Below, in pieces: positions 1,162-33,288 of a stretch of 64,000 nt of DNA. How positions within the stretch are numbered: position 1 is the stretch's first letter; each line of letters opens with the position of its first letter. Made by a program: the position numbers and the translations under genes. A model generated the notes under the pieces. It had not been told where the DNA came from and did no database searches. It saw nothing but the letters and a program-made list of their open reading frames with translations. The DNA comes from Antarctobacter aquimaris (GTDB lineage Bacteria; Pseudomonadota; Alphaproteobacteria; Rhodobacterales; Rhodobacteraceae). The stretch covers positions 124,001 through 188,000 of the forward strand of contig NZ_FXYF01000001.1 in NCBI RefSeq assembly GCF_900184945.1, in the 5' to 3' direction.

Positions 1162-1271
1162 CGGTACTCTCCCTGTGGTTTGCGCCGCAGCATAGGCGCG
1201 CGATCCGGGAATTGAAATGCTGCGCTGCGGCTGCTAGGCGTCGCGGCTTTCCGGGACAGGGAGTCGCGATC

Positions 1272-2489
1272 ATGGCACGGCTTGGCGTCGATTTCGGCAC
1301 CTCCAACACGGGCGCGGCGGTCATGGCCGCCGGGCGCCCCTACGCGATCCCGCTTGAGCCGGGCATGGCCACCCTGCCCACCGCCGTCTTTGTCGATTTC
1401 GCCGAGCGGCAAACGCTCTATGGCAGCGCGGCGGCGCGGGCGATGATGGAGGGCGCCGAAGGCCGCTTCATGCGCGCGTTGAAAAGCATCCTGGGCACTC
1501 CGCTGGCCCGCGAACCGCGCCGCCTGCTGAACGAACGGCTGACCCTGATCGAGGTCATCGCCCGCTTTCTGATCGAGATCCGGGCCCGCGCCGAGGCGCA
1601 CACCGGCCTGCGATTCGACAGTGCGCTGTCCGGCCGCCCGGTGCGCTTTCATTCCGCCTCGGCCGAACGCGACGCCCAGGCGCTGGAGGACCTGGCCGAG
1701 GCCTACCGCCTCGCCGGGTTCAAAAGCGTCGATTTCCTGCCCGAGCCGGAGGCCGCGGCGTTGGCGGTCGATGGCGCGGGCCGCATGCTGATCGTCGACA
1801 TCGGCGGCGGCACCTCGGATTTCACCCTCTGTGAGCGGCAGGATGGCACCACGCAGGTGTTGGCCAGCGGCGGCATCCGGCTGGGCGGGACTGACTTCGA
1901 CAAGGCGCTGAGCCTCGCCCATGCCATGCCGCTGCTGGGCTACGGCGCGCAGATCGGCGCGGAACTGGGCTCAAAGACCCACGCCGCGCCGCGCGCCCTG
2001 TTCCACGACCTGGCCAGCTGGGAAAAGATCCCCTTCGTCTACGACGCCGCCCTGCTGCGCGAGGTGCAGCGCTGGATCCGCCTCGCGCCGCAGCCACGCC
2101 TGTTCGAACGGCTGGCCTCGGTGCTGGAATCGCACCTGGGCCACGACATCGCCTACGCGGTCGAGGCCGCCAAGATCGCCGCCAACGACGACGCGGCGGG
2201 CGAAATCGCGCTGCGCGTGGTCGAACGGGGCCTGTCCGTGCCGCTGTCCCGCGCCCTGCTGGACTCGGCACTGGACGGCTTTGGCGCCGAGATCGCGACC
2301 TGTGCGCTGGACACCGTTGCCGCCGCCGGCGTTGCCCCGGCCAGCGTCGACCAGGTGGTCTATGTCGGCGGCTCCAGCCTGCTGGGCGGGGTCCGTCAGG
2401 CGATGACCCGCGCGCTGCCGCAGGCCGCGCCGGTGGACACCGAGGTGTTTACCGCCGTGGTGCACGGCCTGGCGATTGCGGCAGAATAG
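1272..2489 (+). CDS. Hsp70 family protein (YegD-like, short DnaK relative)
   Basis: A 405-residue actin-fold ATPase of the Hsp70 superfamily. The phosphate-1 motif is near the N-terminus (VDFGTSNTGAAV), phosphate-2 near residue 178 (IVDIGGGTSDF) and the adenosine motif near residue 369 (VYVGGSSLLGG). The protein ends after the nucleotide-binding domain and lacks the DnaK peptide-binding beta domain and lid, as in YegD. Its cellular substrate is unknown. The start was placed at ATG 1272 because an AGGGAG site lies 9-10 bases upstream and family similarity begins there; an in-frame codon 60 bases earlier has no such support. It is divergent from pncA and followed 40 bases later by trhO. Confidence 0.88.
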   Translation: MARLGVDFGTSNTGAAVMAAGRPYAIPLEPGMATLPTAVFVDFAERQTLYGSAAARAMMEGAEGRFMRALKSILGTPLAREPRRLLNERLTLIEVIARFLIEIRARAEAHTGLRFDSALSGRPVRFHSASAERDAQALEDLAEAYRLAGFKSVDFLPEPEAAALAVDGAGRMLIVDIGGGTSDFTLCERQDGTTQVLASGGIRLGGTDFDKALSLAHAMPLLGYGAQIGAELGSKTHAAPRALFHDLASWEKIPFVYDAALLREVQRWIRLAPQPRLFERLASVLESHLGHDIAYAVEAAKIAANDDAAGEIALRVVERGLSVPLSRALLDSALDGFGAEIATCALDTVAAAGVAPASVDQVVYVGGSSLLGGVRQAMTRALPQAAPVDTEVFTAVVHGLAIAAE

Positions 2490-2529
2490 CAGGTTGCCCG
2501 GGGCGCGCGCGGGTCGTATCGCATCCTCC

Positions 2530-3450
2530 ATGTTCACCGTCTGCGCGCTCTACCACTTCACCCGCTTCGCCGATCCCGCCGCCCTGCGCGGGCCGCTGCT
2601 GGACCTCTGCCGGGACGAAAAGATCACCGGCACCCTGCTGCTGGCCTCTGAGGGGATCAACGGCACCGTGGCTGGCCCGGCGCCGGGCATCGACCGGCTG
2701 CTGGCGCATCTGCGCGCCCTGCCCGGCTGCGCCGATCTCGAATGGAAGCTGTCGACCGCCGCCGACCGCCCCTTTGCCCGCATGAAGGTACGGCTGAAAA
2801 AGGAGATCGTGACCATGGGTTTGCCCGACGTGGACCCGCGCGCCCGCGTCGGCCACTACGTCGCGCCGCAGGACTGGAACGCGCTGATCCGCGCGCCCGA
2901 CGTGGCGGTGATCGACACCCGCAACGACTACGAGGTCGCCATCGGCACCTTCGAGGGCGCGGTGGACCCTGGCACCGCCAGCTTTCGCGACTTTCCCGCC
3001 TGGTGGGAGGCCAACAAGGCCCGCTTTCACAACAAGCGCATCGCCATGTTCTGCACCGGCGGCATCCGCTGCGAGAAGTCGACCAACTGGCTGCTGTCGC
3101 AGGGCGTCGAAGAGGTCTACCACCTCAAGGGCGGCATCCTGAAATACCTCGAGGAAGTGCCCGAGGCGGACAGCACCTGGCAGGGCGAATGCTTTGTCTT
3201 CGACGGGCGCGTATCGGTCGGCCACGGCCTGCGAGAGGGGCCGCATGACCTCTGCCACGCCTGCCGCCGCCCGATCCTGCCCAAGGACCGCGCCCGACCG
3301 GAGTACGAACATGGCGTCTCCTGCCACCATTGCCTGACCGAGACCTCGGACGACGACAAGGCGTGCTTTCGCGAACGGCAGCGGCAGATCGCGCTGGCCC
3401 GCGCGCGCGGCGAACGCCACCTGCACGCCGACATCCTCGACGAGGATTGA
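2530..3450 (+). CDS. trhO: tRNA uridine-34 hydroxylase (TrhO/YceA, rhodanese domain)
   Basis: Family members make 5-hydroxyuridine at tRNA position 34 in an oxygen-dependent reaction. The 306-residue protein has an N-terminal acylphosphatase-like domain (about 1-95, with ASEGINGT at 39-46) and a rhodanese domain (about 112-210). The catalytic loop MFCTGGIRCEKS contains Cys175 and Cys181. A Cys-rich C-terminal segment follows (CHACRRPI, SCHHC), which is usual for the family and could bind metal. ATG 2530 is chosen because MFTVCALYHF is the conserved start. It lies between the Hsp70-like gene and galM on the same strand with short gaps. Confidence 0.92.
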   Translation: MFTVCALYHFTRFADPAALRGPLLDLCRDEKITGTLLLASEGINGTVAGPAPGIDRLLAHLRALPGCADLEWKLSTAADRPFARMKVRLKKEIVTMGLPDVDPRARVGHYVAPQDWNALIRAPDVAVIDTRNDYEVAIGTFEGAVDPGTASFRDFPAWWEANKARFHNKRIAMFCTGGIRCEKSTNWLLSQGVEEVYHLKGGILKYLEEVPEADSTWQGECFVFDGRVSVGHGLREGPHDLCHACRRPILPKDRARPEYEHGVSCHHCLTETSDDDKACFRERQRQIALARARGERHLHADILDED

Positions 3451-3508
3451 CGCTGTGTCGCCCGCGCCCGCTCTGCTAAGGATCGGGACAGTCCAGCAGG
3501 GGGCCGCC

Positions 3509-4462
3509 ATGACCGACACCATCACCTCCCACGTCCTTGCCGACGGCGACACCGCCGTCACCGTGCTGTCCCTGGGCTGCGCGGTGCAGGACTGGCAGGT
3601 GGCCGGGCGGCGCGTGGTGCTGGGCTACGATGACCCCGAGGCCTACCGCGACAACCCTCGCTCCATGGGCATCGTCGTCGGCCGCGTCGCCAATCGCACC
3701 GCGCAGGGGCGCTTCACGCTGGATGGCACGGACTGGCAATTGCCAGTCGGCCCCGGCGGGCATCACCTGCACGGGGGGCCGAACGGACTGGGCAAACGCA
3801 ACTGGGCGCTGACCCCCGACGGGCCCCGCGGCGCGGTGCTGCGTCTGTCCTCGCCGCACTTGGACCAGGGGTATCCCGGCGCGGTGGACTTTGAGGTGCG
3901 CCTCACGCTGGACGGCAGCGCCCTGACCTGGGAGATGACCGCCCGCCCCGACCGGCCGACCCCGGTGAACCTGGCGCAGCACCTCTATTTCAACCTCGCC
4001 GGGGCGGGCACGGTGCGCGATCATGTCCTGCGGCTGAACGCCTCCCGCTACACCCCCGCCGGCCCGGACCTTGTGCCCACGGGCGAGGTGCTGCCGGTGA
4101 CGGGCAGCCGCTACGATTTCCTTGCCGCGCGCTCCCTGGCCGAGGCTGACCCGCAGGGCGCCGGCTATGATCTGAACTTCGCGCTGGACGGCGGCACTGG
4201 CCCGGCCGCCGAACTGGTGGCGCCCGATGGCATGACCCTGCGCCTCTGGACCGACCAGCCCGGCCTGCAACTCTATACCTCCACGTCGCTCGCGCCGTTT
4301 GCGCAGCCCTGGCCCGGCGTGGCGCACGGCCCCTGGGGCGGCATCTGCCTCGAGGCGCAGGGCTTTCCCAACGCGTTGAACACGCCGGGCTTTCCCCCGA
4401 TCGTCGTGACGCCGGACACCCCCTACCGCCAGGTGACGACCATCGATATCGCGCCGCGCTGA
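3509..4462 (+). CDS. galM: Aldose 1-epimerase (galactose mutarotase family)
   Basis: Interconverts alpha and beta anomers of aldoses such as galactose or glucose in the cytoplasm. The 317-residue protein has the family landmarks in order: NRTAQGRF near residue 68, HLHGGPNG near 88, the catalytic-histidine region NLAQHLYFNLAG near 170 and the catalytic glutamate in ICLEAQGFPNALN near 290. The start at ATG 3509 follows a purine-rich AGGGGG stretch. It converges with the fliP operon, whose last gene ends 11 bases away, leaving no room for a long shared terminator. No other galactose genes are in the window, so the true sugar is not shown. Confidence 0.9.
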   Translation: MTDTITSHVLADGDTAVTVLSLGCAVQDWQVAGRRVVLGYDDPEAYRDNPRSMGIVVGRVANRTAQGRFTLDGTDWQLPVGPGGHHLHGGPNGLGKRNWALTPDGPRGAVLRLSSPHLDQGYPGAVDFEVRLTLDGSALTWEMTARPDRPTPVNLAQHLYFNLAGAGTVRDHVLRLNASRYTPAGPDLVPTGEVLPVTGSRYDFLAARSLAEADPQGAGYDLNFALDGGTGPAAELVAPDGMTLRLWTDQPGLQLYTSTSLAPFAQPWPGVAHGPWGGICLEAQGFPNALNTPGFPPIVVTPDTPYRQVTTIDIAPR

Positions 4463-4473
4463 GGCCGCGACGG

Positions 4474-5199
4474 TCAGAAATACCCCCGCACCAGGCTGCC
4501 GGCCAGCAGCGACCAGCCGTCAGCCACCACGAAGAACGCCAGCTTGAACGGCAATGAGACGATCGCCGGCGGCACCATCATCATGCCCATCGACATCAGG
4601 ATCGCCGCCACCACCAGGTCGATGATCAGGAACGGCAGGAAGATCAGGAATCCGACCTGGAAGGCCCGCGCGACCTCGGACAGCATGAAGCTGGGCACCA
4701 GCACCGACAGCGGCGCCTCGGGCGACAGTTCGGTTCCCGCCGCGTCGGGCCGCAGGTCGGCCATGGCGCGGTAGGTGTCCGGGTCGACCCGCCCCACCAT
4801 GAAGCCGCGGAACGGCTCGATGGTCAGCACGGCGGCTTCCTCGACCTCGATCTGCTCGTCCAGCAGCGGCTGCACGCCGTTGGTCCAGGCCTCGGTGAAC
4901 ACCGGCTCCATGACGAAGTAGGTCAGGAACAGCGCCAGGCTGACGATCAGCATGTTGGGCGGCGATTGCTGCAGGCCCACCGCCTGCCGCAGGATCGCCA
5001 GCACGGTGACCATGAAGGGAAAGCAGGTCACCATGATCGCGATGCCCGGCGCCAGGCTGAGCAGGGTGATCGCCAGGATCAGCTGGATCGAGGTGGCCGA
5101 GATCGACCCGCCCTCGCCCAGGTCGATGGCGATGGACTGCGCCGCCGCCACACCCGGCAGCAGCAGGCACAGCCCCAGCATCGTCAGGAAAAGGCGCAT
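4474..5199 (-). CDS. fliP: Flagellar type III export gate protein FliP
   Basis: FliP forms the core of the FliP-FliQ-FliR export gate in the flagellar basal body. The 241-residue product has a cleavable signal peptide (MRLFLTMLGLCLLLPGVAAAQ), the conserved block SPPNMLIVSLALFLT near residue 79, and C-terminal membrane helices with FLIIDLVVAAILMSMGMMMVPP near residue 188, a family signature. Length is normal (about 245). It is the last gene of the minus-strand cluster fliF-fliH-fliN-fliP, starting 3 bases after fliN, so it is almost certainly co-transcribed. fliQ and fliR are not adjacent. Confidence 0.97.
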   Translation of the reverse strand: MRLFLTMLGLCLLLPGVAAAQSIAIDLGEGGSISATSIQLILAITLLSLAPGIAIMVTCFPFMVTVLAILRQAVGLQQSPPNMLIVSLALFLTYFVMEPVFTEAWTNGVQPLLDEQIEVEEAAVLTIEPFRGFMVGRVDPDTYRAMADLRPDAAGTELSPEAPLSVLVPSFMLSEVARAFQVGFLIFLPFLIIDLVVAAILMSMGMMMVPPAIVSLPFKLAFFVVADGWSLLAGSLVRGYF

Positions 5200-5202
5200 C
5201 GC

Positions 5203-5490
5203 TCAGACCGGCGAACGCAGGTCGAGCACCTCGGTGATGCGCACCGCCAGCTGCCCCGATCCTTCGCCCTCGATGACCTCCAGCACGCCGATGCCGATCA
5301 GCTTTTCGCCGACGAACAGCTCGACCGGGTCGTCCAGCTGCTTGTCCAGCGCCAGAACCGAGCCTTCGCTCAGTTGCAGCAGCTCCCGCACCAGCGGGCG
5401 GGCCCGGCCGACCGAGACGGTGATCTCGATCGGGACCGAGGTGAAAGCCGTGCCCGCGTCGCCGCGGGGGGCGGATTGCGCGCTATCCAT
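5203..5490 (-). CDS. fliN: Flagellar motor switch protein FliN (SpoA domain)
   Basis: FliN is part of the cytoplasmic C-ring that controls rotation and docks export substrates. The 95-residue protein is almost only a SpoA/SurfaceAntigen-type domain (about 15-92), with PIEITVSVGRARPLVRELLQL followed by LDKQLDDPVELFVGEKLIGIGVLEVI. The short Ala/Gly-rich N-terminus lacks the longer acidic tail of enteric FliN. Its start overlaps the end of the upstream fliH-like gene by 8 bases, indicating coupled translation. Confidence 0.93.
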   Translation of the reverse strand: MDSAQSAPRGDAGTAFTSVPIEITVSVGRARPLVRELLQLSEGSVLALDKQLDDPVELFVGEKLIGIGVLEVIEGEGSGQLAVRITEVLDLRSPV

Positions 5491-6112
5491 GGGTCATCTT
5501 CCTCCGGTTGTCATGGGCAAAGCCCTCCACGGCCTCGGCCACGGAGGCGATCAGGTCGCTCAGGTCGATCTGGCGTTCGGTCTCGCCGAAACGGATGTCG
5601 GCCTGCTCCTCGGCCAGCGTGTCGTCGGGCACCAGCTGGATGGGAAAGGCGAAATCGCTCTTCAGCAGCGGCGTCACCGCCTCCACCCGGGTCGGCGCCA
5701 CGGCGATCACCACCTCCATCTGGCCGATCTCGCGGCTCATCGCCTTGAGCTGGTCGACGATGTGATGGCCCAGGGTTTCCCGCGCGAGCGCCGGCATCAG
5801 CGCGTTCACCATCTCGTTCAGCAGCGGGGTCACCGCGTTCATCACCTGGGTGTAGGCCTCGTGGTAGGTAAAGCTGAGGTCCTGCAAATGTTGACCGAAG
5901 GCGCTCGAGATCCGGGTCCGGTCGTCGGACTGCGACTTGACCGAATCGTCCCAGCCGGCGCGATAGCCCTTTTCAAAGGCTTCCAGCTTCTTGCCTTCCA
6001 GGTCGGCCTCGTTGAAGGCGGGTTGCTGCGGCGCGGCCTCGGCCCGCGTGGCAGATCCCCGGGCCAGGGGCGCGCCGCCGAAATCCTCCAGCAGGTCCTG
6101 CAGCGCGCTCAT
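5483..6112 (-). CDS. fliH: FliH-like flagellar export regulator
   Basis: A 209-residue cytoplasmic protein in the position of FliH, the dimeric stator that binds the FliI ATPase and the C-ring. Sequence conservation is modest, as usual for FliH. Visible features are an N-terminal Ala/Pro-rich part, the region FEKGYRAGWDDSVK (about 46-60), a predicted coiled-coil middle and a C-terminal domain containing LVPDDTLAEEQADIRFGETERQIDL (about 160-185) that resembles the FliH/YscL type. It overlaps fliF by 4 bases (ATGA) and fliN by 8, so all three are translationally coupled. The assignment leans on context; fliI is not in the window. Confidence 0.75.
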   Translation of the reverse strand: MSALQDLLEDFGGAPLARGSATRAEAAPQQPAFNEADLEGKKLEAFEKGYRAGWDDSVKSQSDDRTRISSAFGQHLQDLSFTYHEAYTQVMNAVTPLLNEMVNALMPALARETLGHHIVDQLKAMSREIGQMEVVIAVAPTRVEAVTPLLKSDFAFPIQLVPDDTLAEEQADIRFGETERQIDLSDLIASVAEAVEGFAHDNRRKMTHG

Positions 6113-7731
6113 CGGGCGTCTTCCTTGTCTTCCTCGAGCCAGCTGCGCAGGATCTCCACGGTCTCGGTCTTGCGCGCCTCGATCAGGTTGCGCAGCCGTT
6201 CGACCGGGTCCTCCTCGGGCGGGGCGTCGAAGTCGACCATGCCCATGCCGCCGAAATCGGCGTTGTTGGCCAGCACCGGCAGGTTGTCGAACCGGTCGTC
6301 GTCCTCGTCGATCTCGCCGTCCAGCACCGGGCCGTCCGCGCGCGGCGACGGCAGGGCGCCGGCACTGGCCAGGCTGCCGGCCGACCCGCCGCGCGCCAGG
6401 ATCGGGCGCAGCACGAACAGGCCGAGGATCAGCGCCACCACCGCCAGCACCGCCATCTGGATCAGCCGCATGGTGTCGATCGACCCGGCAAAGATCGAGG
6501 GTTCGATCGGTCCGGTGCCCAGCCCCTCGGGCCGCTCGAACGGCAGCGAGCGCAGGGTGATCTGGTCGCCGCGGGCCTCGTCGTAGCCCACCGCCGAGGC
6601 GACCAGCTCGCGCAGCGCCTCCAGCTCGGTGGCTTCGAGCGGGACGAACTGCTGGCTGCCGTCGGCCGCCGCCTGGTAGGTGCCGTTGACCAGCACTGCC
6701 ACGGTCAGCCGCTTGATCGCGCCCGGCTGGCGGGTGATCTCGCGCGTGGTCTCGGACACCTCATAGTTGACCCGCTCGCGCGTCTCGGCCTTGGCGGAGG
6801 AGGATTGGTCCGGCCCGCCGCCGGCCGCGCCATCGGGCAGGTTCGAGGCCACGGTGACATCGCCGCCGCCGCCGACATTCTCCGAGGTGTCGGTCCGTTC
6901 CTCGGTGTCGGTGGAGATCACCACGCGGCTTTCCGGGTCAAAGCTGCGTTCGCGAATCAGCTCGCTCTCGGTGACGGTGTCGACGCTGACCTCGACCACC
7001 GCGTTGCCCGCGCCGACGCGCGCCTCCATCAGGCGCTGCACCCGGTCGCGCAGAAGGGCGGCCTTGTCGTCGGCGGTGGGGCCTGCGCCGTTTTCGTCCT
7101 CGGCGCCGATCAGCCCGGCCTTGCCGTCGATCACGGCGACGTTCTCGGGCACCAGGCCCGGCACGGCGGAGGCGACGAGGTACTTCAGCGCCCGCGCCTG
7201 CACCGCGTTGATCGCGGCGCCCGTCGTGGTGATCGAGATCGAGGCGGTCGGCGTCACGTCGCGCTGAAAGGGATTCGCGCTGGAATTCGCGATGTGCACG
7301 CGGGCGCCGGTGAACTGCGGATTCGCCACGATCGTGCGCGCCAGCTCGCCCTCCTTGGCGCGCCAGTAGGCGGCGTCGAACATCTGGCTGGTGGTGCCGA
7401 ATCCCGACAGCCCGTCCAGCAGCTCGTAGCCCTGGCCGCCGTTTGCCGGCAGCCCCTCGCTGGCAAGGGTGAGTCGCAGCGTGTCGCGCTGCGCCTCGGG
7501 CACGAAGATCGCGCCGCCGCGCACGTCATAGGTGACGCCGCGCGCCTCCAGCGCCTTGACCACGTCGCCGGCGGCGCCGTTTTCCAGCCCCGCATAGAGA
7601 AGGACCTGGTTGGGGGCCGACGCAAGCCGTGTCAGGCCCAGGACGGCGAGCATGACCGCAAGGGTTGCACCGACGACGATCATCCTCTGCCGCCCGCCAA
7701 GGGCATTCCAGACCGAGAGTAGCTGCTGCAA
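6109..7731 (-). CDS. fliF: Flagellar MS-ring protein FliF
   Basis: FliF builds the membrane MS-ring, the first structure of the flagellar basal body. The 540-residue protein has a first membrane helix near residues 17-40, ring-building motifs around LYAGLENGAAGDVVKALEARG and GARVHIA, a long disordered periplasmic loop (Gly-rich near residue 290) and a second helix near 425-447, followed by the FliG-binding C-terminal tail. The start is set at TTG 7731, because it has an AGCGGAGG site 6 bases upstream and gives the usual MQQLLSVWNALGG opening; the 21-codon extension has no ribosome site. Transcription probably starts in the fliF/fliL gap, where a CtrA-like site lies at 7788. Confidence 0.96.
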   Translation of the reverse strand: MQQLLSVWNALGGRQRMIVVGATLAVMLAVLGLTRLASAPNQVLLYAGLENGAAGDVVKALEARGVTYDVRGGAIFVPEAQRDTLRLTLASEGLPANGGQGYELLDGLSGFGTTSQMFDAAYWRAKEGELARTIVANPQFTGARVHIANSSANPFQRDVTPTASISITTTGAAINAVQARALKYLVASAVPGLVPENVAVIDGKAGLIGAEDENGAGPTADDKAALLRDRVQRLMEARVGAGNAVVEVSVDTVTESELIRERSFDPESRVVISTDTEERTDTSENVGGGGDVTVASNLPDGAAGGGPDQSSSAKAETRERVNYEVSETTREITRQPGAIKRLTVAVLVNGTYQAAADGSQQFVPLEATELEALRELVASAVGYDEARGDQITLRSLPFERPEGLGTGPIEPSIFAGSIDTMRLIQMAVLAVVALILGLFVLRPILARGGSAGSLASAGALPSPRADGPVLDGEIDEDDDRFDNLPVLANNADFGGMGMVDFDAPPEEDPVERLRNLIEARKTETVEILRSWLEEDKEDAR

Positions 7732-7787
7732 GACGAACCTCCGCTCCAAACATTCTGTTCGGTTGGTCGGAGGTTGACCCAATCGCC

Positions 7788-7802
7788 TTAACAATCAGTT
7801 AG
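7788..7802. promoter_or_regulatory. CtrA-type binding site between fliF and fliL
   Basis: The sequence reads TTAA-N7-TTAG, one base from the CtrA consensus TTAA-N7-TTAA. It sits between the divergent fliF (start 7731) and fliL (start 7847) operons, where a shared site would control both. CtrA is known to control flagellar genes in Rhodobacterales. Binding is inferred, not shown. Confidence 0.55.
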
Positions 7803-7846
7803 CCCATTTTTCCTATAACGGTTTCACGTCAAGAAAGAGGTTAGGA

Positions 7847-8359
7847 ATGTCTGACACCACCGTGGATGCCGACGAACCCGCCGAAAAGAAACCGTCGAAG
7901 CTGCCTCTCGTCATCGGTCTTGTGCTGGCGCTCGCGGGCGGGGGCGGTGGATTCTACGCCGTGCAGTCCGGCCTGATCGGCGGGTCCGGGGCCGCCCCGG
8001 ACGCGGCGCAGGCGGACACCGGGCACGGCGATCCGCACGTGGCGACCAAGGCGCTGCCCGACGTGACATTCATCGAGGTGCCGCCGCTGACGATCTCGCT
8101 GGGGCCGGGCGCGCAGGCGCAACACCTGCGCTTTCGCGCCAGTCTCGAGGTGCCGTCGGAATACCAGGCAGAGGTCGAAAGGATCCTGCCGCGCATCCAG
8201 GATGTGCTCAACAGCTACCTGCGCGCGCTAGAGGCCAAGGACATCGAGGCGCAGGGCGCGCTCATCCGGCTGCGCGGGCAGATGCTGCGCCGGGTCAAGC
8301 TGGTCGCCGGAGAGGGCCGCGTGCGCGACCTCCTGGTGCTGGAATTCGTATTGAACTGA
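7847..8359 (+). CDS. fliL: Flagellar basal-body-associated protein FliL
   Basis: FliL surrounds the stator in the inner membrane and supports torque. The 170-residue protein has a short cytoplasmic N-terminus, one membrane helix at about 19-40 (LPLVIGLVLALAGGGGGFYAV) and a periplasmic FliL domain ending with the conserved VRDLLVLEFVLN. An AGAGG site precedes ATG 7847. It opens the plus-strand flagellar group and is followed within about 11 bases by an unknown small gene and then a MotE-like gene. Confidence 0.94.
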   Translation: MSDTTVDADEPAEKKPSKLPLVIGLVLALAGGGGGFYAVQSGLIGGSGAAPDAAQADTGHGDPHVATKALPDVTFIEVPPLTISLGPGAQAQHLRFRASLEVPSEYQAEVERILPRIQDVLNSYLRALEAKDIEAQGALIRLRGQMLRRVKLVAGEGRVRDLLVLEFVLN

Positions 8360-8370
8360 GGGAGATGGCA

Positions 8371-8718
8371 ATGGAGATGATCGCGGATATCCTGCTGGTG
8401 GCCGGGGCGCTGGGCGCCGGGTTCTACTGTTTCATCCTGGCGCGGCGGCTGTCGCGCTTCACCGACCTGGAGAACGGCGTCGGCGGCGCCGTGGCGGTGC
8501 TGTCCGCGCAGGTCGATGACCTGACGCGCACGCTGGCCAGCGCGCAGCAGACGGCGGGCGAATCGAACAAGTCGCTGGGCGAACTCACCGACCGGGCCGA
8601 GGACGTGGCGCGGCGGCTGGAACTACTCGTCGCCTCGATGCACGACCTGCCGCAAACCGCCGCCCCGCCCAAGCCCGAGATCAAGGACAACGTCTTCATG
8701 CGCCATCCGCGCGCCTGA
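8371..8718 (+). CDS. Unknown small membrane protein of the flagellar operon
   Basis: A 115-residue protein not assigned to a named family. It has one N-terminal membrane helix (about 3-22), then a helical stretch rich in Leu, Ala and Gln (about 30-95) that looks like a coiled coil, and a short polar C-terminus with NVFMRHPRA. The start is ATG 8371: GGGAG lies 6 bases upstream of it, whereas it directly abuts the alternative ATG at 8365. Its position between fliL and a motE-like gene suggests a stator or basal-body accessory role in motility, which is inferred from context alone. Confidence 0.8.
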   Translation: MEMIADILLVAGALGAGFYCFILARRLSRFTDLENGVGGAVAVLSAQVDDLTRTLASAQQTAGESNKSLGELTDRAEDVARRLELLVASMHDLPQTAAPPKPEIKDNVFMRHPRA

Positions 8719-8760
8719 ATCGCCTGACCGGGCAGCGCCGCCCATCATCGAGGAAACAGC

Positions 8761-9441
8761 ATGGCAAAAGCACAAGCTCCCGCACCGAAGACGCCGGCCG
8801 CCAAGCCGGCGAAGCGCAGGCCGCGCCGCAAACCGCGCGGCGCCCTGGCGGCGATCTGCGCCCTGCTGGTGACCTCCGCCCTGCTGCGCGCCGCCGTCGG
8901 CGCGAGCGAGGCGATCGCCCGCGAGGATCCCGTCGCCGCGCCCCAGGCGCCGGCGCCGGCCAAGGCAGCGGCCGCGCCGCAGGCGGCACAGGGGGCGGAT
9001 CCCGATGCGCCCGCGGCCTACATGGTCGCCGAGGCCGATCTGGCCCCGCTGATCGACGCGCTCAACGCCCGCGAAGAGCGGATTCGCAAGCGCGAGGCGG
9101 CGATCGAGGTGCGGATGCAGGCGCTCACCGTCGCCGAGCACGAGATCGACAGCAAGCTCGCCGCCCTGGCCGAGGCCGAGGACAGCCTCAAGCGGACCCT
9201 CACCCTGGCCCGCACCGCCGCCGAGGACGACATCGCCAAGCTGACCAACGTCTACGCCAGCATGAAACCGAAACAGGCGGCCGCGCTGTTCGAGGAGATG
9301 GACCCGGAATTCGCGGCCGGATTCCTGGGCCGGATGCGGCCGGATGCCGCCGCGGCGATCATGGCCGGCATGACCCCGCAGGCCGCCTACCTGACCAGCG
9401 TGATTCTCGCCGGGCGCAACGCCGACGTGCCGAAGGAGTGA
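8761..9441 (+). CDS. motE: MotE-like stator chaperone (MgtE-N-like domain)
   Basis: A 226-residue protein with a basic Pro/Ala/Lys-rich cytoplasmic N-terminus, one membrane helix (about 29-47), a long coiled coil (about 95-150) and a C-terminal domain with KPKQAAALFEEMDPEFAAGFLGRMRPDAAAAIMAGM (the run spans about 167-203) that resembles the MgtE N domain of MotE proteins. In rhizobia MotE is a periplasmic chaperone for the motor protein MotC. It ends the fliL operon in this window, consistent with a stator-related role. The precise partner here is unknown. Confidence 0.8.
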   Translation: MAKAQAPAPKTPAAKPAKRRPRRKPRGALAAICALLVTSALLRAAVGASEAIAREDPVAAPQAPAPAKAAAAPQAAQGADPDAPAAYMVAEADLAPLIDALNAREERIRKREAAIEVRMQALTVAEHEIDSKLAALAEAEDSLKRTLTLARTAAEDDIAKLTNVYASMKPKQAAALFEEMDPEFAAGFLGRMRPDAAAAIMAGMTPQAAYLTSVILAGRNADVPKE

Positions 9442-9581
9442 CAAAAGCACAACAGGCCGGCGCCACGATCGGCCGTCACACGGCAAATTGAAACCCGGGT
9501 CGGCTATGCCGCCATTGCATTTTTTCGCATCCTGAGCCACATGTCTTGCCTGAATTCGAGACCGACCGCACGAGGGCTGCC

Positions 9582-10145
9582 ATGATCACTCGCCGAAACT
9601 TCGTCACCGCTGCCGCCGCGACTGCCGCGGTCTCCGCGCTGCCCGCGCCTGCGCTGGCCTTCGCGGTCGAGCCGATCTACCTGCCGCAGACCGTGGCCAT
9701 CAAGAAGGACCTGGCGCCCAACCAGATCCTGATCCTGACCAGGGCGCATTTTCTCTACCTGGTCGAGGCGCCCGGCCAGGCCCGCCGGTACGGCGTCGGC
9801 CTCGGCAAGGCCGGTCAGGCGATATCGGGCACCTACGACGTGGGCGGCAAGAAGAAATGGCCGACCTGGCGTCCAACCGATGCGATGATCGAGCGCGAAC
9901 CCGCGGCCTACTCGAAGTTCATCGACAACGATTACGTGCAGCCGGGCGGGCCGGGCAACCCGCTGGGCGCGCGCGCGCTCTACCTCTACCGCAATGGCCG
10001 CTACACCTTCAACGCGATCCATGGCACCACCGCGCCCAAGTCGATCGGCCGGTCGGTCTCCAACGGCTGCGTCCGCATGATCAACGACCACGTGATCGAC
10101 CTGTACGAGCGCGTGCAGCCGGGAACCAAAGTCACCGTTCTGTGA
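9582..10145 (+). CDS. Exported L,D-transpeptidase (ErfK/YbiS/YcfS family)
   Basis: A periplasmic cysteine enzyme that makes 3-3 peptidoglycan crosslinks or attaches proteins to the wall. The 187-residue precursor starts MITRRNF with an Ala-rich stretch to PALAFA, a Tat-like signal. The YkuD active site is complete: HGT at 147-149 and S-NGCVRM with nucleophile Cys163. ATG 9582 follows an AGGG site. The stop overlaps the GTG start of the next gene by 4 bases, so the two are translationally coupled, although no functional link is evident. Confidence 0.93.
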   Translation: MITRRNFVTAAAATAAVSALPAPALAFAVEPIYLPQTVAIKKDLAPNQILILTRAHFLYLVEAPGQARRYGVGLGKAGQAISGTYDVGGKKKWPTWRPTDAMIEREPAAYSKFIDNDYVQPGGPGNPLGARALYLYRNGRYTFNAIHGTTAPKSIGRSVSNGCVRMINDHVIDLYERVQPGTKVTVL

Positions 10146-11308
10146 CGGGTGCCCCCGGGCGCAGGACGCGGCGCTTTGACCTGATCGTTCTCGGCGCCGG
10201 CCCCGCTGGCGCCGCAGCCGCGATGAAGGCCGCGACCGCCGGCCTGACTGTCGCGCTGGTCGACAAGGCCCTGTTTCCGCGCGACAAGCTCTGCGGCGGC
10301 GGCCTCACCGGCCGCGCCATCACCCAGTACCGGCGCTGTTTCGGCGGCGATCTGCCCCCGGTCCCGCTGGAGCGGCGATCGGATTTTGTCTTTCACGCCC
10401 ACGGGCAGGATCTCGGCCGCAGCACAGACGCGCCGCCGCTGCACCTCGGGATGCGGTTCCAGCTGGATGCCGATCTGGTGCGGCAGGCGCTGGCCCGGGG
10501 GGCGAAGGACTTCACCGGGCACAGCGGTGCGCTTGATCCCGACGCCCCGGCGCTGGACCTGCCCGACCAGCGGCTCGAGGCGCCGCTGATCATCGCCGCG
10601 GATGGGGTGAACAGCCCGACCGCGCGGGCGCTGTTCGGCGCCGCCTATGACCCGGCGCGGATCGGCTTTGCGCTGGAGGTCGAGCTTCCCGGCGCCGACC
10701 CCGACCGCCCGCTGCGGATCGACTTCGGCGCCGCCGACTGGGGCTATGGCTGGCAGTTCCCGAAACCGCAGGGCACCACCATCGGCGTCGGCGGGGTGCA
10801 CGCCCGCAATTCCGACATGAAGGCCGCGCTGCGCCGTTACCTCGCCGTCCTGGACGTGCCCGACAGGCTGAATGTCAAGGGCCAGTTCCTGCCCTTCGGC
10901 GATTTCCGCGCCGTTCCGGGCAAGGGCCGCGTCCTGCTGGCCGGGGACGCCGCCGGGCTGGTCGATCCGATCACCGGCGAGGGCATCGCCCATGCGCTGG
11001 ACAGCGGCACCTGCGCCGCCGAGGCGGCCATCGCCGCACTGGCCGCGGGCAGGCCCGACGACGCGCTGGAGCGCTACCAACAGGCGATCCGGCCGATCCA
11101 TCGCGGGCTGCGCCAGGCCCGCCTGCTGCGCAACATCATGTTCCGCGAACGCCTGCGCCCCGCCTTCATCCGCAGTTTCCGCAACTCGCGCACCCTGCGT
11201 GGCGAATACCTGCGCCTGATGGCCGGCGAGACGGAGTACGGCGCGCTGATGCGAAAGATGGCCACGCGGCTGCCCGGTTTTGCCTGGCGGGCCATCAGCG
11301 GATCGTGA
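10142..11308 (+). CDS. Geranylgeranyl-reductase-family flavoprotein
   Basis: A 388-residue FAD-dependent enzyme of the geranylgeranyl reductase/PHBH superfamily, which reduces isoprenoid double bonds or hydroxylates substrates. Visible are the dinucleotide fold GAGPAGAAAA (about 18-27), the family motif KLCGGGLTGRA (about 52-62) and the second FAD motif LLAGDAAGLVDPITGEGI (about 264-281). The start is the GTG that overlaps the stop of the L,D-transpeptidase gene (GTGA), since similarity begins there. No photosynthesis or carotenoid genes are seen nearby, so the substrate is open. Confidence 0.88.
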   Translation: MTGAPGRRTRRFDLIVLGAGPAGAAAAMKAATAGLTVALVDKALFPRDKLCGGGLTGRAITQYRRCFGGDLPPVPLERRSDFVFHAHGQDLGRSTDAPPLHLGMRFQLDADLVRQALARGAKDFTGHSGALDPDAPALDLPDQRLEAPLIIAADGVNSPTARALFGAAYDPARIGFALEVELPGADPDRPLRIDFGAADWGYGWQFPKPQGTTIGVGGVHARNSDMKAALRRYLAVLDVPDRLNVKGQFLPFGDFRAVPGKGRVLLAGDAAGLVDPITGEGIAHALDSGTCAAEAAIAALAAGRPDDALERYQQAIRPIHRGLRQARLLRNIMFRERLRPAFIRSFRNSRTLRGEYLRLMAGETEYGALMRKMATRLPGFAWRAISGS

Positions 11309-11346
11309 CAATCCGTCGAAAAATGCCCGCATGACGGGAAAGTGCT

Positions 11347-11361
11347 TTAAGCCTTTGTTAG
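11347..11361. promoter_or_regulatory. Second CtrA-type site, ahead of a small membrane-protein gene
   Basis: The sequence is TTAA-N7-TTAG, the same pattern as the site between fliF and fliL. It ends 39 bases upstream of the ATG at 11401, a usual distance for a promoter-overlapping site. Consensus match is seen; binding is inferred. Confidence 0.4.
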
Positions 11362-11400
11362 GACTTCCGGCCATATCCTTTCCCGGATACGGAGGGTGTG

Positions 11401-11589
11401 ATGGCTGTTTTCGCCTTTTTGTTCGGCAGTATCGTGGGCTTGTTCTGCGCCATCTTTGGCTGGGTCGCCTATGACATGAGCTTTCTGGCCGGGGCCGGGC
11501 TCTACTTCACGTTGAATTTCACGGTCGGGTTCTTCCTGGTCCTCGCCAACATGCCGCTGGAGACCGACACCGAGCGGGTCAAGGCCTGA
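11401..11589 (+). CDS. Unknown 62-residue membrane protein
   Basis: A short, very hydrophobic protein with two predicted membrane helices (about 3-24 and 30-50) and a charged tail (LETDTERVKA). It has no recognised family. The ATG at 11401 is supported by a GGAGG site 5 bases upstream; a GTG just before it is too close to that site. A CtrA-like site lies upstream, so it may belong to the motility/cell-cycle set. It converges with tesA, whose end is 11 bases away. Confidence 0.78.
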   Translation: MAVFAFLFGSIVGLFCAIFGWVAYDMSFLAGAGLYFTLNFTVGFFLVLANMPLETDTERVKA

Positions 11590-11599
11590 CCGCAGGCCG

Positions 11600-12271
11600 T
11601 CACGGGTCGATCCGCGCCAGCAGCGCTTCGACGTTCGGCCCGACAACCTCGACGATCCGCGCCACCCCCGCCGAGTTCGGATGAATGCCGTCCGACTGCA
11701 TGAAAGCGCCCAGCGCCGCGGGATCGGCGCCGTCCTGCATCAGCCCCGCGAAAAAGCTTTCCTGGTACAGCGTGCCATACATCTCCGCCAACTCGGGGTA
11801 CATCGCGTCGAACTGCGCCTTGTACTCGGGCCCGTAGTTGCCCGGCGCCTGCATCCCGATCAGCAGCACCTCCAGCCCGCGCGCCTCGGCCACCTTCAGG
11901 ATACCGTCGAGATTGGCGCGCGACACCGTCGGGTCGATCCCGCGCAGCAGGTCGTTGCCGCCCAGCGCCACGATCATCCCCTGGATCTCGGGCGAGAGCG
12001 ACCATTCGACCCGCGCCAGCCCGCCCGCCGTGGTATCGCCCGACACGCCGCCGTTGACGATGCGCACATCGTGGCCGCGCGCCGCCAGCCAATCGCGCAG
12101 CTGCGGCACGAATCCCTCGTGGTCGAGCAGCCCATACCCCTGCGTCAGGCTGTCGCCCAGCGCCAGAATATGCAGCCTTTCCGCCGAGGCCGAGGTCGCC
12201 AGAATCACCAGCAATGCCGCAAATGCCTTGCTGCGCAGGGATGACAGCCCATATCTGACCCAATGCATCAT
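11600..12271 (-). CDS. tesA: Arylesterase / acyl-CoA thioesterase I (SGNH hydrolase)
   Basis: A 223-residue exported GDSL/SGNH hydrolase like E. coli TesA. It has a signal peptide (about 1-30, ending ATSASA), the nucleophile block GDSLTQGYG with Ser41, the oxyanion blocks with NGGVSGDTTAGG and GGNDLLRG, and the Asp-His pair in SDGIHPN. It is divergent from ybbA; the tesA/ybbA arrangement is the same as in E. coli. Two adjacent ATG codons (12271, 12268) are possible, preceded by AAGGAG about 10 bases upstream. Confidence 0.92.
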   Translation of the reverse strand: MMHWVRYGLSSLRSKAFAALLVILATSASAERLHILALGDSLTQGYGLLDHEGFVPQLRDWLAARGHDVRIVNGGVSGDTTAGGLARVEWSLSPEIQGMIVALGGNDLLRGIDPTVSRANLDGILKVAEARGLEVLLIGMQAPGNYGPEYKAQFDAMYPELAEMYGTLYQESFFAGLMQDGADPAALGAFMQSDGIHPNSAGVARIVEVVGPNVEALLARIDP

Positions 12272-27545: not shown

Positions 27546-28013
27546 CTACTGCCCGTCCGCCACGCGCACCACGGTCTGATAGGCAAACTCCAGCGTCTGG
27601 ACCGCCAGCGCGTCCCCATCCCCCACCGCATCAAAGGGCGCGACTTTCCATTTGACCGGCCAGGCCCCGGTGATGACCCAGGCCATCACCGGTGTCGCCT
27701 CGGGTCCGACCAGCGAAAGCTCGAGGTCCTTGGTTTGGATCTTGCCGGAAAAACCGCTCACGAGCGTGTTCTTCAGCCACTGGCCCAGATCGCTCGTCAC
27801 GGACCCGATCAGGCCGCGCTTGCAGACAAGGTCGCGATAGCGATCGGCGGCGGGCAGCCGGTGAACATAAGCGTTTTCCCCACCTTCGCGGAACGGCACC
27901 TCGGTCAGATCGGCCTCGAGTCCCGAAACCTCCCGGAAACTCGCCATCACCCGGTCGTCACCGGACAGGCGCAGCTCGAACCGGACCGCGGGTAGTGGAC
28001 CGAAGTCATTCAT
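27546..28013 (-). CDS. Orphan phage tail-tube-type protein (gp19 / eCIS tube family)
   Basis: A 155-residue protein that resembles the T4 gp19-like tail-tube family also used in extracellular contractile injection systems. Visible family features are RFELRLSGDD at the N-terminus, FREVSGLEADLTEVPFREGG (about 26-45), VCKRGLIGSVTSDLGQWLKN (about 63-82) and a C-terminal LEFAYQTVVR. An AAGGGG site precedes ATG 28013. No sheath, baseplate, spike or other tail genes are near it, so it is either a remnant or a stand-alone use of the fold. It is bordered by structured repeats on both sides. Confidence 0.8.
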   Translation of the reverse strand: MNDFGPLPAVRFELRLSGDDRVMASFREVSGLEADLTEVPFREGGENAYVHRLPAADRYRDLVCKRGLIGSVTSDLGQWLKNTLVSGFSGKIQTKDLELSLVGPEATPVMAWVITGAWPVKWKVAPFDAVGDGDALAVQTLEFAYQTVVRVADGQ

Positions 28014-29971: not shown

Positions 29972-31423
29972 ATGAAATCCGCAGGCAGTTTCCTCCTCGT
30001 TGCGATCCTTGCCCTGGCCGGCCCCGCGCTGGCGCAGGACGAACAGGTCGTGACCAAGCAATACGACGACGGCGGCGTCTACGAGGGCACCTTCCTGAAC
30101 GGCTTGCAGCACGGCCAGGGCACCTACCGCCTGCCCAACGGCTACGAATACACCGGCGCATGGGTCGAGGGCGAAATTCGCGGCCAGGGCGTCGCGCGCT
30201 TCCCCAACGGGTCGGTCTACGAAGGCGACTTCGCCAAGGGCAAGCCCGAGGGCATGGGCCGCATCGTCTTTGCCGACGGCGGCACCTATGAGGGCCAGTG
30301 GCTGGACGGCAAGATCACCGGCACCGGCATCGCGCTCTACGCCAACGGCGTGCGCTACGAAGGCTCGTTCCGCAACGCGCTGCACCACGGCAAGGGCGTG
30401 ATGACCGCGCCCAACGGCTATGTCTACGACGGCCAGTGGGTGAACGGCGTCAAGGAAGGCACCGCCAAGATCGTCTACCCCGACAAATCGGTCTACGAGG
30501 GCCGCGTGGCGGACGGCGAACGCGACGGCAGCGGCAAGCTGACCATGCCGGACGGGCTGATCTACGAAGGCACCTGGCGCGAAGGCCAGATCGACGGCGA
30601 GGGCAAGCTGATCCAGCCCAACGGCGACGTCTACGCCGGCCAGCTGGTCGACGGCCGCCGCGAAGGCCGCGGCAAGGTCACCTACGCCAACGGCGACATC
30701 TACGAAGGCCAGTTCAACAACGACCAGCGCCATGGCCAGGGCAGCTTTGTCGGCAAGGACGGCTACCGCTACGAAGGCAATTGGGTCACCGGCCAGATCG
30801 AAGGCCAGGGCAAGGTCACCTACCCCGACGGCTCGGTCTACGAGGGCGAATTCAAGGGCGACCTCGCCAACGGCATGGGCAAGATCACCTACCCCGACGG
30901 CGCGACGTATGAGGGCGAGTGGGTCGATGGCGTGATCCAGGGCAAGGGCCGCGCCACCTATCCCAACGGCCTCGTCTACGAAGGCCAGTTCGTCAACGCC
31001 CGCAACGACGGGCTCGGCGTGATGACCTACCCCGACGGCTACCGCTACGAAGGCATGTGGCAGGACGGCCAGCGCCACGGCGAAGGCAAGGCCACCTACC
31101 CCGACGGCACCGTCTACGAGGGCCAGTTCCGCGAGGGCCAGCGCCACGGCAAGGGCACCATCGTGATGGCCTCCGGTTTCCGCTACGAAGGCGACTGGGA
31201 GCGCGGCGAGATCAACGGCCAGGGCATCGCCGTCTACGCCAACGGCGACATCTACGAAGGCACCTTCAAGGAGGGCAAGCGCCAGGGCCAGGGCACCATG
31301 CGCTATGCCTCGGGCGAAGAGGCTTCGGGCGACTGGGTCGGCGGCGCGCTGCGCTCCACCCCCGCCGCCGATCCCGCGCCGCAGCCCGAAGCCGACCCGG
31401 CCGCACCGCCGGCGGACAATTGA
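29972..31423 (+). CDS. Exported MORN-repeat protein, about 18 repeats
   Basis: A 483-residue protein with a signal peptide (about 1-21, ending PALAQ) followed by about 18 tandem 23-residue MORN repeats (about residues 37-450) of the form YEGxWxxGxxxGxGxxxYPDGxx, and a Pro/Ala/Asp-rich tail. MORN arrays form long beta sheets and act as scaffolds or membrane/ligand binders; bacterial exported forms are little studied. The stop overlaps the TTG start of the next gene, a LuxR-type membrane regulator, suggesting co-expression. The regular DNA repeat seen here is coding, not a tandem-repeat satellite. Confidence 0.93.
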   Translation: MKSAGSFLLVAILALAGPALAQDEQVVTKQYDDGGVYEGTFLNGLQHGQGTYRLPNGYEYTGAWVEGEIRGQGVARFPNGSVYEGDFAKGKPEGMGRIVFADGGTYEGQWLDGKITGTGIALYANGVRYEGSFRNALHHGKGVMTAPNGYVYDGQWVNGVKEGTAKIVYPDKSVYEGRVADGERDGSGKLTMPDGLIYEGTWREGQIDGEGKLIQPNGDVYAGQLVDGRREGRGKVTYANGDIYEGQFNNDQRHGQGSFVGKDGYRYEGNWVTGQIEGQGKVTYPDGSVYEGEFKGDLANGMGKITYPDGATYEGEWVDGVIQGKGRATYPNGLVYEGQFVNARNDGLGVMTYPDGYRYEGMWQDGQRHGEGKATYPDGTVYEGQFREGQRHGKGTIVMASGFRYEGDWERGEINGQGIAVYANGDIYEGTFKEGKRQGQGTMRYASGEEASGDWVGGALRSTPAADPAPQPEADPAAPPADN

Positions 31424-32703
31424 CCGCGCGGTCGCAGCGCTCCGATCCCGCAGACACGCGACTGACGACCCTTGCCCGCGCGGCCCTCGCCGCGCTGTGG
31501 CTGGTCCTGTTCATCCTCACCCCGCCCGCCCGCGCGCAGGAGGCAGACGGCGCCATCGTCCGCGTCGGCATCCTCGCCCATCGCGGCTGGACCGGGGCCG
31601 ACAGCCCCTGGACCGACCTCGCCGCCTACCTGCAACAGCGCCTGCCCGGCCGCACCGTGCGCTTTGTCCCGGTGACGCTGACCTCGGCCGGGTCGCTGGT
31701 GAATGTCGGCGGGCTGGAATTCCTGGTGACCAACCCGGGCCACTACATCGACCTTGCCCGCACCTACCCGCTCAGCGTGCTGGCCACGCGCAAACGCGCC
31801 CTGCCGGACGGCAGCCACACGCTGCAATTCGGCTCGGCCGTGCTGGTGCGGTCGGACAGCCGCCTGGATACCCTGTCGGACCTGCGCGGCGCGCGACTGG
31901 GCGCGGTCGATCCGCAGGCTTTCGGCGGCTTTCAGATCGCCTGGTTCGAGGCGCTCTCGCGAGGCGTCGACCTGTTCCGCGACCCCTCCGAACTGGTGTT
32001 CTACGGCTTTCCCCAGGACGCCATCGTGCAGGCGGTGCTGGACGGCCGGATCGAGGCCGGGATCGTCCGCAGCGGGTTGCTCGAACGGCTGGTGGCCGAG
32101 GGCAGCGTGCCGCCGGGGGCGCTGCGCGCGCTCAACGCCAACGTGACCTACACCCACCCCGAGGCGGTCAGCACCCGGCTTTACCCGGAATGGCCCTTCC
32201 TCGCCCTCGCCGGGACGGACCCTGACCTGCGCGACGCGGTGGCGCTGGCCCTGCTGCAAAGCGGCGACAGCGGGCTGGCGGACCTCTGGGGCGCGCCGGT
32301 CAGCTACCACGAGGCGCGCGCGCTGATCGCCGCCTTCTCGGCCCGCGAGGCGCCGCCGGGCGACACGGACGCCGCCGCCGCGCGCTTCGGCTGGCCCGTC
32401 GCGCTGGCCGTCGTGCTGCTGGCCCTGCTGGGCGCCGCGCTGGTCCTGCGGCAACGCCGCGCGCCGCCTCCGCCCCCAGACACCGCGCTGGACGACGTGC
32501 CCCTGACCCGGCGCGAAAGTCAGATCCTCGCCCAGATCGGCGCCGGACGCTCCACCAAGGAAATCGCCGCCACCCTGGGCATCAGCCCCAAGACGGTCGA
32601 ATTCCACCGCGCCAACCTGCTGCGCAAGTTCGAGGCGCGCAGTTCCGCCCAGCTGATCGCCCGCGCCGGACACCAGGTTTCCACCCCCGGACCCGAAACC
32701 TAG
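31420..32703 (+). CDS. Membrane-spanning one-component regulator: TtrS/PhnD-like sensor plus LuxR HTH
   Basis: A 427-residue protein with an N-terminal hydrophobic segment (about 18-38), a periplasmic binding-protein-like domain (about 47-305), a second helix (about 324-343) and a cytoplasmic LuxR/GerE helix-turn-helix (about 362-420, LTRRESQIL, STKEIAATLGISPKTVEFHR). The sensor starts VRVGILAHRG and has LEFLVTNPGHYIDL, strongly like the PhnD-type domain of the tetrathionate sensor TtrS. There is no kinase or receiver domain, so ligand binding would be passed straight across the membrane to DNA. Start is TTG 31420, overlapping the MORN stop (TTGA). The adjacent DsrE gene suggests a sulfur-compound signal. 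Confidence 0.88.
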   Translation: MTARSQRSDPADTRLTTLARAALAALWLVLFILTPPARAQEADGAIVRVGILAHRGWTGADSPWTDLAAYLQQRLPGRTVRFVPVTLTSAGSLVNVGGLEFLVTNPGHYIDLARTYPLSVLATRKRALPDGSHTLQFGSAVLVRSDSRLDTLSDLRGARLGAVDPQAFGGFQIAWFEALSRGVDLFRDPSELVFYGFPQDAIVQAVLDGRIEAGIVRSGLLERLVAEGSVPPGALRALNANVTYTHPEAVSTRLYPEWPFLALAGTDPDLRDAVALALLQSGDSGLADLWGAPVSYHEARALIAAFSAREAPPGDTDAAAARFGWPVALAVVLLALLGAALVLRQRRAPPPPPDTALDDVPLTRRESQILAQIGAGRSTKEIAATLGISPKTVEFHRANLLRKFEARSSAQLIARAGHQVSTPGPET

Positions 32704-32744
32704 GGTTTTCCCGGGGTCGAAACCGGCAGGAAACACATGGTTTC
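32676..32744. promoter_or_regulatory. Array of GGTTTC/GAAACC half-sites ahead of dsrE
   Basis: Six half-sites alternate in orientation: GGTTTC 32676, GAAACC 32695, GGTTTTC 32704, GAAACC 32719, GAAAC 32730 and GGTTTC 32739. They span the last codons of the LuxR-type gene and the gap before the DsrE gene. Such an array suits cooperative binding by a dimeric regulator, most simply the LuxR protein encoded next to it. Alternatively some pairs are RNA hairpins. Confidence 0.55.
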
Positions 32745-32829
32745 GCCGGGTGGGCAGACGTTCACGCGATGCGCCATGCTCAGGTCACGCAGGGGAACAC
32801 CCCGCACCCACTGGGAGGAGATCCACACA

Positions 32830-33288
32830 ATGACCCGTTTCATCCAGCTTTTCGCGCTGCTCGGCGTGGCCGTCGCCGTCCTTGCCATGCCGGGCAAGAC
32901 GCTCGCCGAAGGCTACGGCCAGCAAAAGGTCGTCTACCACATCAACTACACCGGCGGTGACGACAACAAGGCCTACACCGGCGCGATGCGCAACATCCAG
33001 AACCACATCGACGCCGTCGGCGCCGACAACATGGAGGTCCGCGTGGTCCTGCACGGCAACGGAGTCGGCCTGTTGCAGGCCGCCAAGGGCGACCCGACCA
33101 TGCAGACCGTGGTGTCGGGCCTGAAGGAACAGAAGGTCAAGTTCAACGTCTGCAACAACACCCTCACCGGCCGGAACATCGACTACTCGAACGACCTCTA
33201 CGACGTCTGGGAAGACGACATCGTCCCCTCCGGCGTGGCCGAACTGTCCAAGCTCCAGATCGAGGGCTTCACCTACATCAAGCCCTGA
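32830..33288 (+). CDS. Periplasmic DsrE-family protein
   Basis: A 152-residue precursor with a signal peptide (about 1-26, ending TLAEG) and a DsrE/DsrF-type domain. The conserved cysteine is Cys108 in VKFNVCNNTLTGR, the usual sulfur-carrying position in exported relatives. DsrE-like proteins take part in sulfur relay and sulfur oxidation, but this subfamily has no settled role. A strong GGAGGAG site precedes ATG 32830. It sits behind the half-site array and the TtrS-like regulator, which suggests it is the regulated output. Confidence 0.88.
   Translation: MTRFIQLFALLGVAVAVLAMPGKTLAEGYGQQKVVYHINYTGGDDNKAYTGAMRNIQNHIDAVGADNMEVRVVLHGNGVGLLQAAKGDPTMQTVVSGLKEQKVKFNVCNNTLTGRNIDYSNDLYDVWEDDIVPSGVAELSKLQIEGFTYIKP

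Follow-up and report, generated by a model that had tools for sequence, protein, structure and literature searches.

A TtrS-like sensor fused to a LuxR domain and paired with an exported DsrE protein: a candidate one-component sulfur regulator in Alphaproteobacteria

The stretch of DNA analysed here, called the window, comprises 64,000 nt of the Antarctobacter aquimaris genome (contig NZ_FXYF01000001.1, positions 124,001 to 188,000), and the positions given below are those of the window. A gene on the forward strand (31420..32703) encodes a fusion regulator, in which a TtrS/PhnD-type periplasmic sensor (residues ~45–310) is joined through a membrane helix (316–345) to a LuxR helix-turn-helix (361–414). 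It is followed on the same strand by a gene for an exported DsrE-family protein (32830..33288), here dsrE. Between them lies a palindromic candidate operator, ACCTAGGGTTTTCCCGGGGT (32698..32717, no strand assigned), which includes the stop codon of the regulator. Loci and genomes used for comparison are cited by L and G numbers.

The regulator is 427 aa long, with a TTG start at 31420 that overlaps the stop codon of a MORN-repeat gene and a stop codon that ends at 32703. When compared with Pfam, the protein matched Phosphonate-bd (PF12974, residues 64–283, E 1.5e-32) and GerE/LuxR (PF00196, residues 361–414, E 3.8e-19), and nothing else scored above cut-off, neither HisKA/HATPase nor a receiver. 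Because only these two families passed, the regulator was taken to be without kinase and receiver. The NCBIfam model for TtrS (NF040750) aligned to residues 48–305 (E 1.5e-49), which is the periplasmic part only, the alignment ending before the kinase part. The score was 169 bits against a cut-off of 750, and as HisKA/HATPase was also missing, the regulator was not classed as TtrS. It has the GerE domain of LuxR-type response regulators without their receiver domain, and it unites sensor, membrane helix and DNA-binding domain in a single chain, as membrane-anchored one-component regulators do.

An AlphaFold2 model built with 33 aligned sequences (mean pLDDT 87.3) showed a signal-like helix at residues 10–33, a two-lobed domain at ~45–310, a membrane-length helix at 316–345 and a helix-turn-helix at the end, with residues 346–356 forming a loose, low-confidence linker between the last two. 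The modelled two-lobed domain superposed on the solved structures of ArrX, PtxB, HtxB, AioX and PhnD with Z-scores of 20–23 at 13–20% identity (Foldseek was also run). All 21 sensor positions that were checked were invariant across 33 of 33 aligned sequences, including TNPGH (104–108), FGG (168–170), GFP (196–198), R217, E222 and EW (257–258). The window regulator contains no cysteine, and a cysteine in the periplasmic part was found in just one of 33 aligned relatives. A first-pass annotation, made from the sequence alone, had described a periplasmic domain of TtrS/PhnD type, a single membrane helix and a LuxR domain with no kinase or receiver; Pfam, NF040750 and AlphaFold2 agree with this description, and the domain does align with PhnD-type structures. 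Its reading of the protein as a one-component version of TtrS was likewise borne out, as far as kinship goes, by the NF040750 match, the fold and the single-chain architecture.

Relatives were collected in a pattern scan of one genome per species (84,980 species), from which the best 80 of 225 confirmed stretches were kept. Among these 80 were 48 full-length fusions, and L035, identical to L036, was dropped before all counts, leaving 47, at 33–70% identity. Together with the window they make up 48 loci, all from Alphaproteobacteria as judged by record title, tree label or taxonomy. Judged by sequence comparison, the fusion is a conserved protein family. A profile of the periplasmic domain found three members in 386 genomes of the class, which has little bearing on rarity as at most six candidates per genome were scored; in the corresponding search of a 149-genome sample of the window's family, at most 11 were scored. 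A divergent fusion, L103 (G151), had no DsrE and no palindrome within 11 kb (best 5.5 bits). TtrS-type sensor domains were also found on open frames of 1089–1405 codons (L161–L164), and the great length of these frames suggests that such sensors are joined to other outputs too.

The partner gene encodes 152 aa followed by a stop codon, and its product belongs to PF02635 (E 2.7e-10, 40.9 bits against a cut-off of 22.7). The ATG at 32830 is more likely to be the start than position 32737, given the signal-like N-terminus and the register with relatives. Residue C108 is the only cysteine of the protein and was conserved in 21 of 21 aligned members, and the fold matches DsrE/DsrF-like structures (the MTH1491, ST0148 and YchN folds). 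Although DsrE was absent from the search query, a dsrE gene lay downstream of the regulator on the same strand in 45 of the 48 loci. Forty-one of these, the window included, were close homologues adjoining the regulator, and four were divergent (L039, L049, L053 and L054). A gene for a solute-binding protein lay between the regulator and the divergent DsrE gene in L049, L053 and L054. DsrE was not found beside the fusion in L032, L033 and L041, and in L032 and L041 a solute-binding-protein gene occupied its place after the regulator. A family search on L041 indicated that the solute-binding protein after the regulator in these five loci is of the SBP_bac_11 type. In 386 genomes of the class, DsrE of this profile was found in 26.

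Reading the gaps between regulator and dsrE revealed a recurring 20-bp palindrome, ACCTAGGG-NNNN-CCCTAGGT. The eye-read consensus was matched at 15 of 18 positions or better near the regulator stop in 40 of 48 loci, whereas 200 shuffled palindromic consensuses averaged 0.31 loci and reached eight at most. As this consensus had been drawn from the same loci, a held-out test was made. Expectation-maximisation on 27 loci of one clade, with eight near copies excluded from training and scored separately, yielded a palindromic 20-bp motif, ACCTAGGGaATtCCCTAGGT, of 23.7 bits. The learned motif marked the best place of the entire locus in 13 of 13 held-out loci of the other clade, in 24 of the 27 training loci and in all eight near copies. 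Before 23 dsrE genes without a fusion, its top score was 0.1 bits.

The palindrome scored 26.9 bits in the window, where the second-best site in the 64 kb scored 12.6 bits. At least 13 bits were reached within −40 to +170 of the regulator stop in 44 of 48 loci; in L015 the palindrome sits further on than +170 inside its own regulator–dsrE gap, and in L036 it is weak (10.0 bits). The regulator stop codon falls inside it in 18 of 48 loci, window included. From the end of the palindrome to the dsrE start the distance was 100–134 nt in 33 of 37 scored loci and 74–79 nt in the other four, and conservation dropped at the palindrome edges in 35 loci (the eight near copies and loci below 14.5 bits were left out). 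These results suggest that the palindrome adjoining dsrE is the regulator's own operator, as its conservation indicates, with binding predicted. The first-pass annotation had linked regulator and dsrE from a single neighbourhood, and this link has become stronger, with the pairing in 45 loci and a conserved palindrome between the genes. Of 40 loci folded, many also showed a minor feature, a stem-loop of varying sequence directly ahead of the ribosome-binding site of dsrE (32789..32805, forward strand, in the window), where it may protect the mRNA.

In 1.6 Mb of other locus sequence, scanned without L001, L035, L089, L107 and L129–L159 (own or pattern-picked), seven places reached at least 14 bits: two were further copies of the sites in L016 and L018, one was in the gap of L015, three were in L124, L104 and L088, a duplicate of L104, and one was in L010, corresponding to window positions 30233–30252 inside the MORN gene. 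A wider regulon was considered and dropped, since the extra matches were no higher than those of a control pattern. With up to two mismatches, the window's genome gave 13 strand matches against seven for a backwards control. The best extra match lies between what we take, from reading the sequence, to be a YhhQ-like transporter gene and arfB, and the others were within or at the start of coding frames. With one mismatch, 16 of 21 genomes drawn from the 47 fusion genomes had a match, 15 of them at the regulator locus, and the 21 together had 10 strand matches outside it against 12 for the control. Autoregulation from upstream was also set aside: in the 500 bp before the regulator, the best match was 14 of 18 positions in one locus and 10–13 in the other scored loci.

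The same palindrome was found at two loci with two-component systems. In L104 (G003, from the window's family), a TtrS-type sensor (353 bits) and a TtrR/FixJ-type regulator stand beside ttrB, ttrC and ttrA, and a palindrome of 16.8 bits covers the TAG stop of the TtrR-type response regulator, before ttrB; 20 nt there, CCGAAACCTAGGGTTTTCCC, are identical to the window. In L124 (G196, same class; 1240–12082), genes for a TtrS-type kinase and for a response regulator of LuxR type are followed by a run in one direction: soxC, soxA, soxX and soxB, each above its NCBIfam cut-off, then a gene for DsrE of this family and one for a YeeE-type transporter. A palindrome of 18.5 bits lies between the response regulator and soxC, and the L124 TtrS-type system is a candidate thiosulfate sensor for the sox genes. 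The ThsR operator, defined by mutation in Shewanella, is given as TATGTGGTTTACCACAAT in PMC5408782, and it has a GG-4 nt-CC centre in common with the fusion palindrome, a likeness judged by eye. Separately, L168 (Thioclava sp. FTW29 plasmid) has a perfect TTAGGGTAAACCCTAA palindrome at 4588–4607, in front of a c-type cytochrome gene that itself precedes genes for a TtrS-type sensor and a response regulator; this palindrome is perhaps the operator of that system.

In some loci sulfur genes lie nearby. L049 and L053 have a gene for flavocytochrome c sulfide dehydrogenase that diverges from the fusion gene, and in L029 an ATP sulfurylase/APS kinase gene is immediately upstream of the fusion. DsrE without the fusion adjoins a flavocytochrome c sulfide dehydrogenase gene in L126, a SoxA/TsdA-type cytochrome gene in L123 and genes for a SoxC-like enzyme and a cytochrome in L117. 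SoxB scored above cut-off in 42 of 48 fusion genomes compared with 93 of the 149 genomes sampled from the window's family. The six SoxB-negative fusion genomes are all metagenome-assembled genomes judging by their titles, one with a partial SoxB. Fisher's exact test, run after removing the three genomes with the regulator–dsrE pair from the background, gave p 4.6e-4 for this enrichment, a value that ignores relatedness and rests on fusion genomes from several families. The sox, ttr and sulfide-dehydrogenase neighbours in some loci, together with SoxB in 42 of 48 genomes, favour a sulfur ligand.

Upstream of the regulator, the MORN-repeat gene (29972..31423, forward strand) encodes 18 repeats according to Pfam. 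MORN was clustered beside the fusion in the window and in 12 of 48 loci, all of them belonging to the 15-row section of the tree that includes the window; L014 and L015 are among a few further loci in which antisense open reading frames may mask it. On this count the gene was judged a local bystander and dropped from the regulator–dsrE module, and the neighbourhood beyond regulator and dsrE varied between groups of loci. Coupling of the MORN gene to the regulator, as originally proposed, was therefore not upheld outside one part of the tree, and of the suggested MORN–regulator–DsrE order the regulator–DsrE portion was the conserved one in the genome survey. Elsewhere in the window, the reverse strand at 27546–28013 encodes a phage T4 gp19-like tail-tube protein (PF06841, E 3.5e-27).

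We propose that the regulator is related to TtrSR but works as a one-component system: it would sense a sulfur oxyanion, either thiosulfate or tetrathionate, and control a single adjacent gene, that of DsrE, a presumed periplasmic sulfur carrier. To this reading we assign a probability of about 0.62. The two-lobed periplasmic domain would bind a small sulfur oxyanion, most likely thiosulfate or tetrathionate, and because the window regulator has no cysteine, sensing would proceed by non-covalent binding and not by thiol chemistry. Binding would alter how a dimer packs across the lone membrane helix and so place two cytoplasmic LuxR domains on the 20-bp palindrome just beyond the regulator gene. 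The adjacent dsrE would then be switched, most probably on; the activator reading is taken from ThsR, which activates its promoter according to PMC5408782. The periplasmic one-cysteine DsrE might in turn handle or carry sulfane sulfur beside the Sox pathway. A tentative extension, which we would sooner doubt than adopt, is that a whole two-component system collapsed into one protein that retains a TtrS-type sensor and a TtrR-type operator and that works from the membrane, in cis, on one target only. On that view, since the operator lies at or near the regulator's own stop codon, the regulator would sense external sulfur oxyanions and switch its neighbouring gene alone.

Several observations weigh against this proposal. 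Only two of 15 alphaproteobacterial TtrS-type loci (L104 and L124) carried the palindrome at 14 bits or more; the other 13 (L105, L106, L125 and L160–L169, with L165–L169 taken from annotated plasmid records) were without it at that threshold, L168 and L169 having a related core only, and it was found in none of 19 beta- and gammaproteobacterial TtrS-type loci (L055–L072 and L074). The palindrome is missing from the fusion loci L033 and L044, and a scan for promoters and terminators between regulator and dsrE found nothing, including no sigma-70-type promoter. DsrE of this family was found in 10 of 149 genomes of the window's family, with the regulator beside it in three and without it in seven, and two of the three (G070 and G078 of the family sample) duplicate the records of L016 and L018. 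Four of 20 neighbour proteins scanned were sulfur enzymes, the others being unrelated, unknown or cytochrome-like, and soxB of the window's genome is on a different contig. A profile of the fusion helix-turn-helix gave a LuxR protein elsewhere in the window's genome 77.4 bits compared with 66.9–69.9 for TtrR-type proteins. Finally, in a tree of 70 sensor domains the fusions fell into two groups with kinases between them (94/81 on the dividing branch), so that the fusion label needs two changes on this tree; the fusions may nevertheless have a single origin. As to descent of the helix-turn-helix from TtrR, the similarity scores do not single out TtrR.

The same machinery might instead respond to phosphite, phosphonate, arsenite/arsenate or sulfite, with DsrE answering a related stress, and the nearest solved structures do bind phosphite, methylphosphonate, arsenate or arsenite, no solved TtrS or ThsS structure being among the matches listed. 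However, the sequence-profile match is to TtrS, the contexts are sox, ttr and sulfide dehydrogenase, and the partner is a DsrE, and we regard another ligand as unlikely. The sign of control could also differ. If the regulator repressed dsrE and the ligand relieved repression, or if the palindrome served chiefly to control another process, for instance transcription reading through from the regulator gene, the usual spacing of 100–134 nt before dsrE would fit equally, being compatible with either sign, and so would the failure to recognise a promoter in the gap. ThsR, a relative with a similarly laid-out site, is an activator according to PMC5408782, which speaks against these variants, and we consider them unlikely.

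A closer role for DsrE, as a part of the sensor that loads a sulfur species onto the periplasmic domain or presents it there, the pair forming a two-protein receptor, would account for the tight pairing and for a cysteine-free sensor beside a one-cysteine partner. Yet fusions without a detected DsrE occur in L032, L033, L041 and L103, and DsrE also occurs without the fusion, leaving this arrangement very improbable. The missing kinase and receiver might even mark a decayed or mis-assembled TtrS without function, but this is hardly credible in view of 47 other full-length members at 33–70% identity, 21 sensor positions invariant in 33 of 33 sequences, and a conserved partner gene and palindrome.

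The fusion family is a candidate direct periplasmic sulfur sensor with a defined candidate operator and, within the reach of the pattern searches, a single target. According to the abstract of PMC11582611, it is poorly understood how the regulators of sulfur oxidisers detect sulfur outside the cell. The single-target layout means that ligand, operator and output could be addressed in one reporter strain, and a two-component system and a one-protein relative with a common DNA site offer a natural comparison. The protein might also serve as a compact thiosulfate or tetrathionate biosensor without a phosphorelay. Searches of titles and the starts of abstracts in the open-licence PMC literature turned up no account of either the fusion or the regulator–DsrE pair.

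The closest known systems are TtrS/TtrR for tetrathionate and ThsS/ThsR for thiosulfate. As described in PMC5408782, they share with the fusion a PhnD-like periplasmic sensor, a LuxR/FixJ-type DNA-binding domain, a sulfur setting and a palindromic site with a GG-4 nt-CC centre. In contrast, the fusion is one chain without kinase or receiver, and its candidate target is dsrE, whereas theirs is a reductase operon (PMC5408782). SoxR, SqrR and sHdrR are repressors that likewise provide sulfur-responsive control in Alphaproteobacteria, but they are cytoplasmic and react via two cysteines (PMC10451225). The window regulator, by contrast, senses through a predicted periplasmic domain and lacks cysteine altogether, so that persulfide chemistry on two cysteines, as in SoxR and SqrR, is impossible for it. 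Membrane regulators of the CadC/ToxR type (CadC, PMC5430869) likewise combine a sensor, a membrane helix and a DNA-binding domain in one protein. The fusion differs from them in its LuxR-type domain and in having the periplasmic part first and the DNA-binding part last. CadC has a winged helix DNA-binding domain, and its order is reversed relative to the fusion. The DsrE partner shares its fold with MTH1491, ST0148 and YchN, but has a signal-like N-terminus and a cysteine conserved within its own family. Compared with all of these, the fusion with its own putative operator and DsrE partner appears to be a new combination of known parts.

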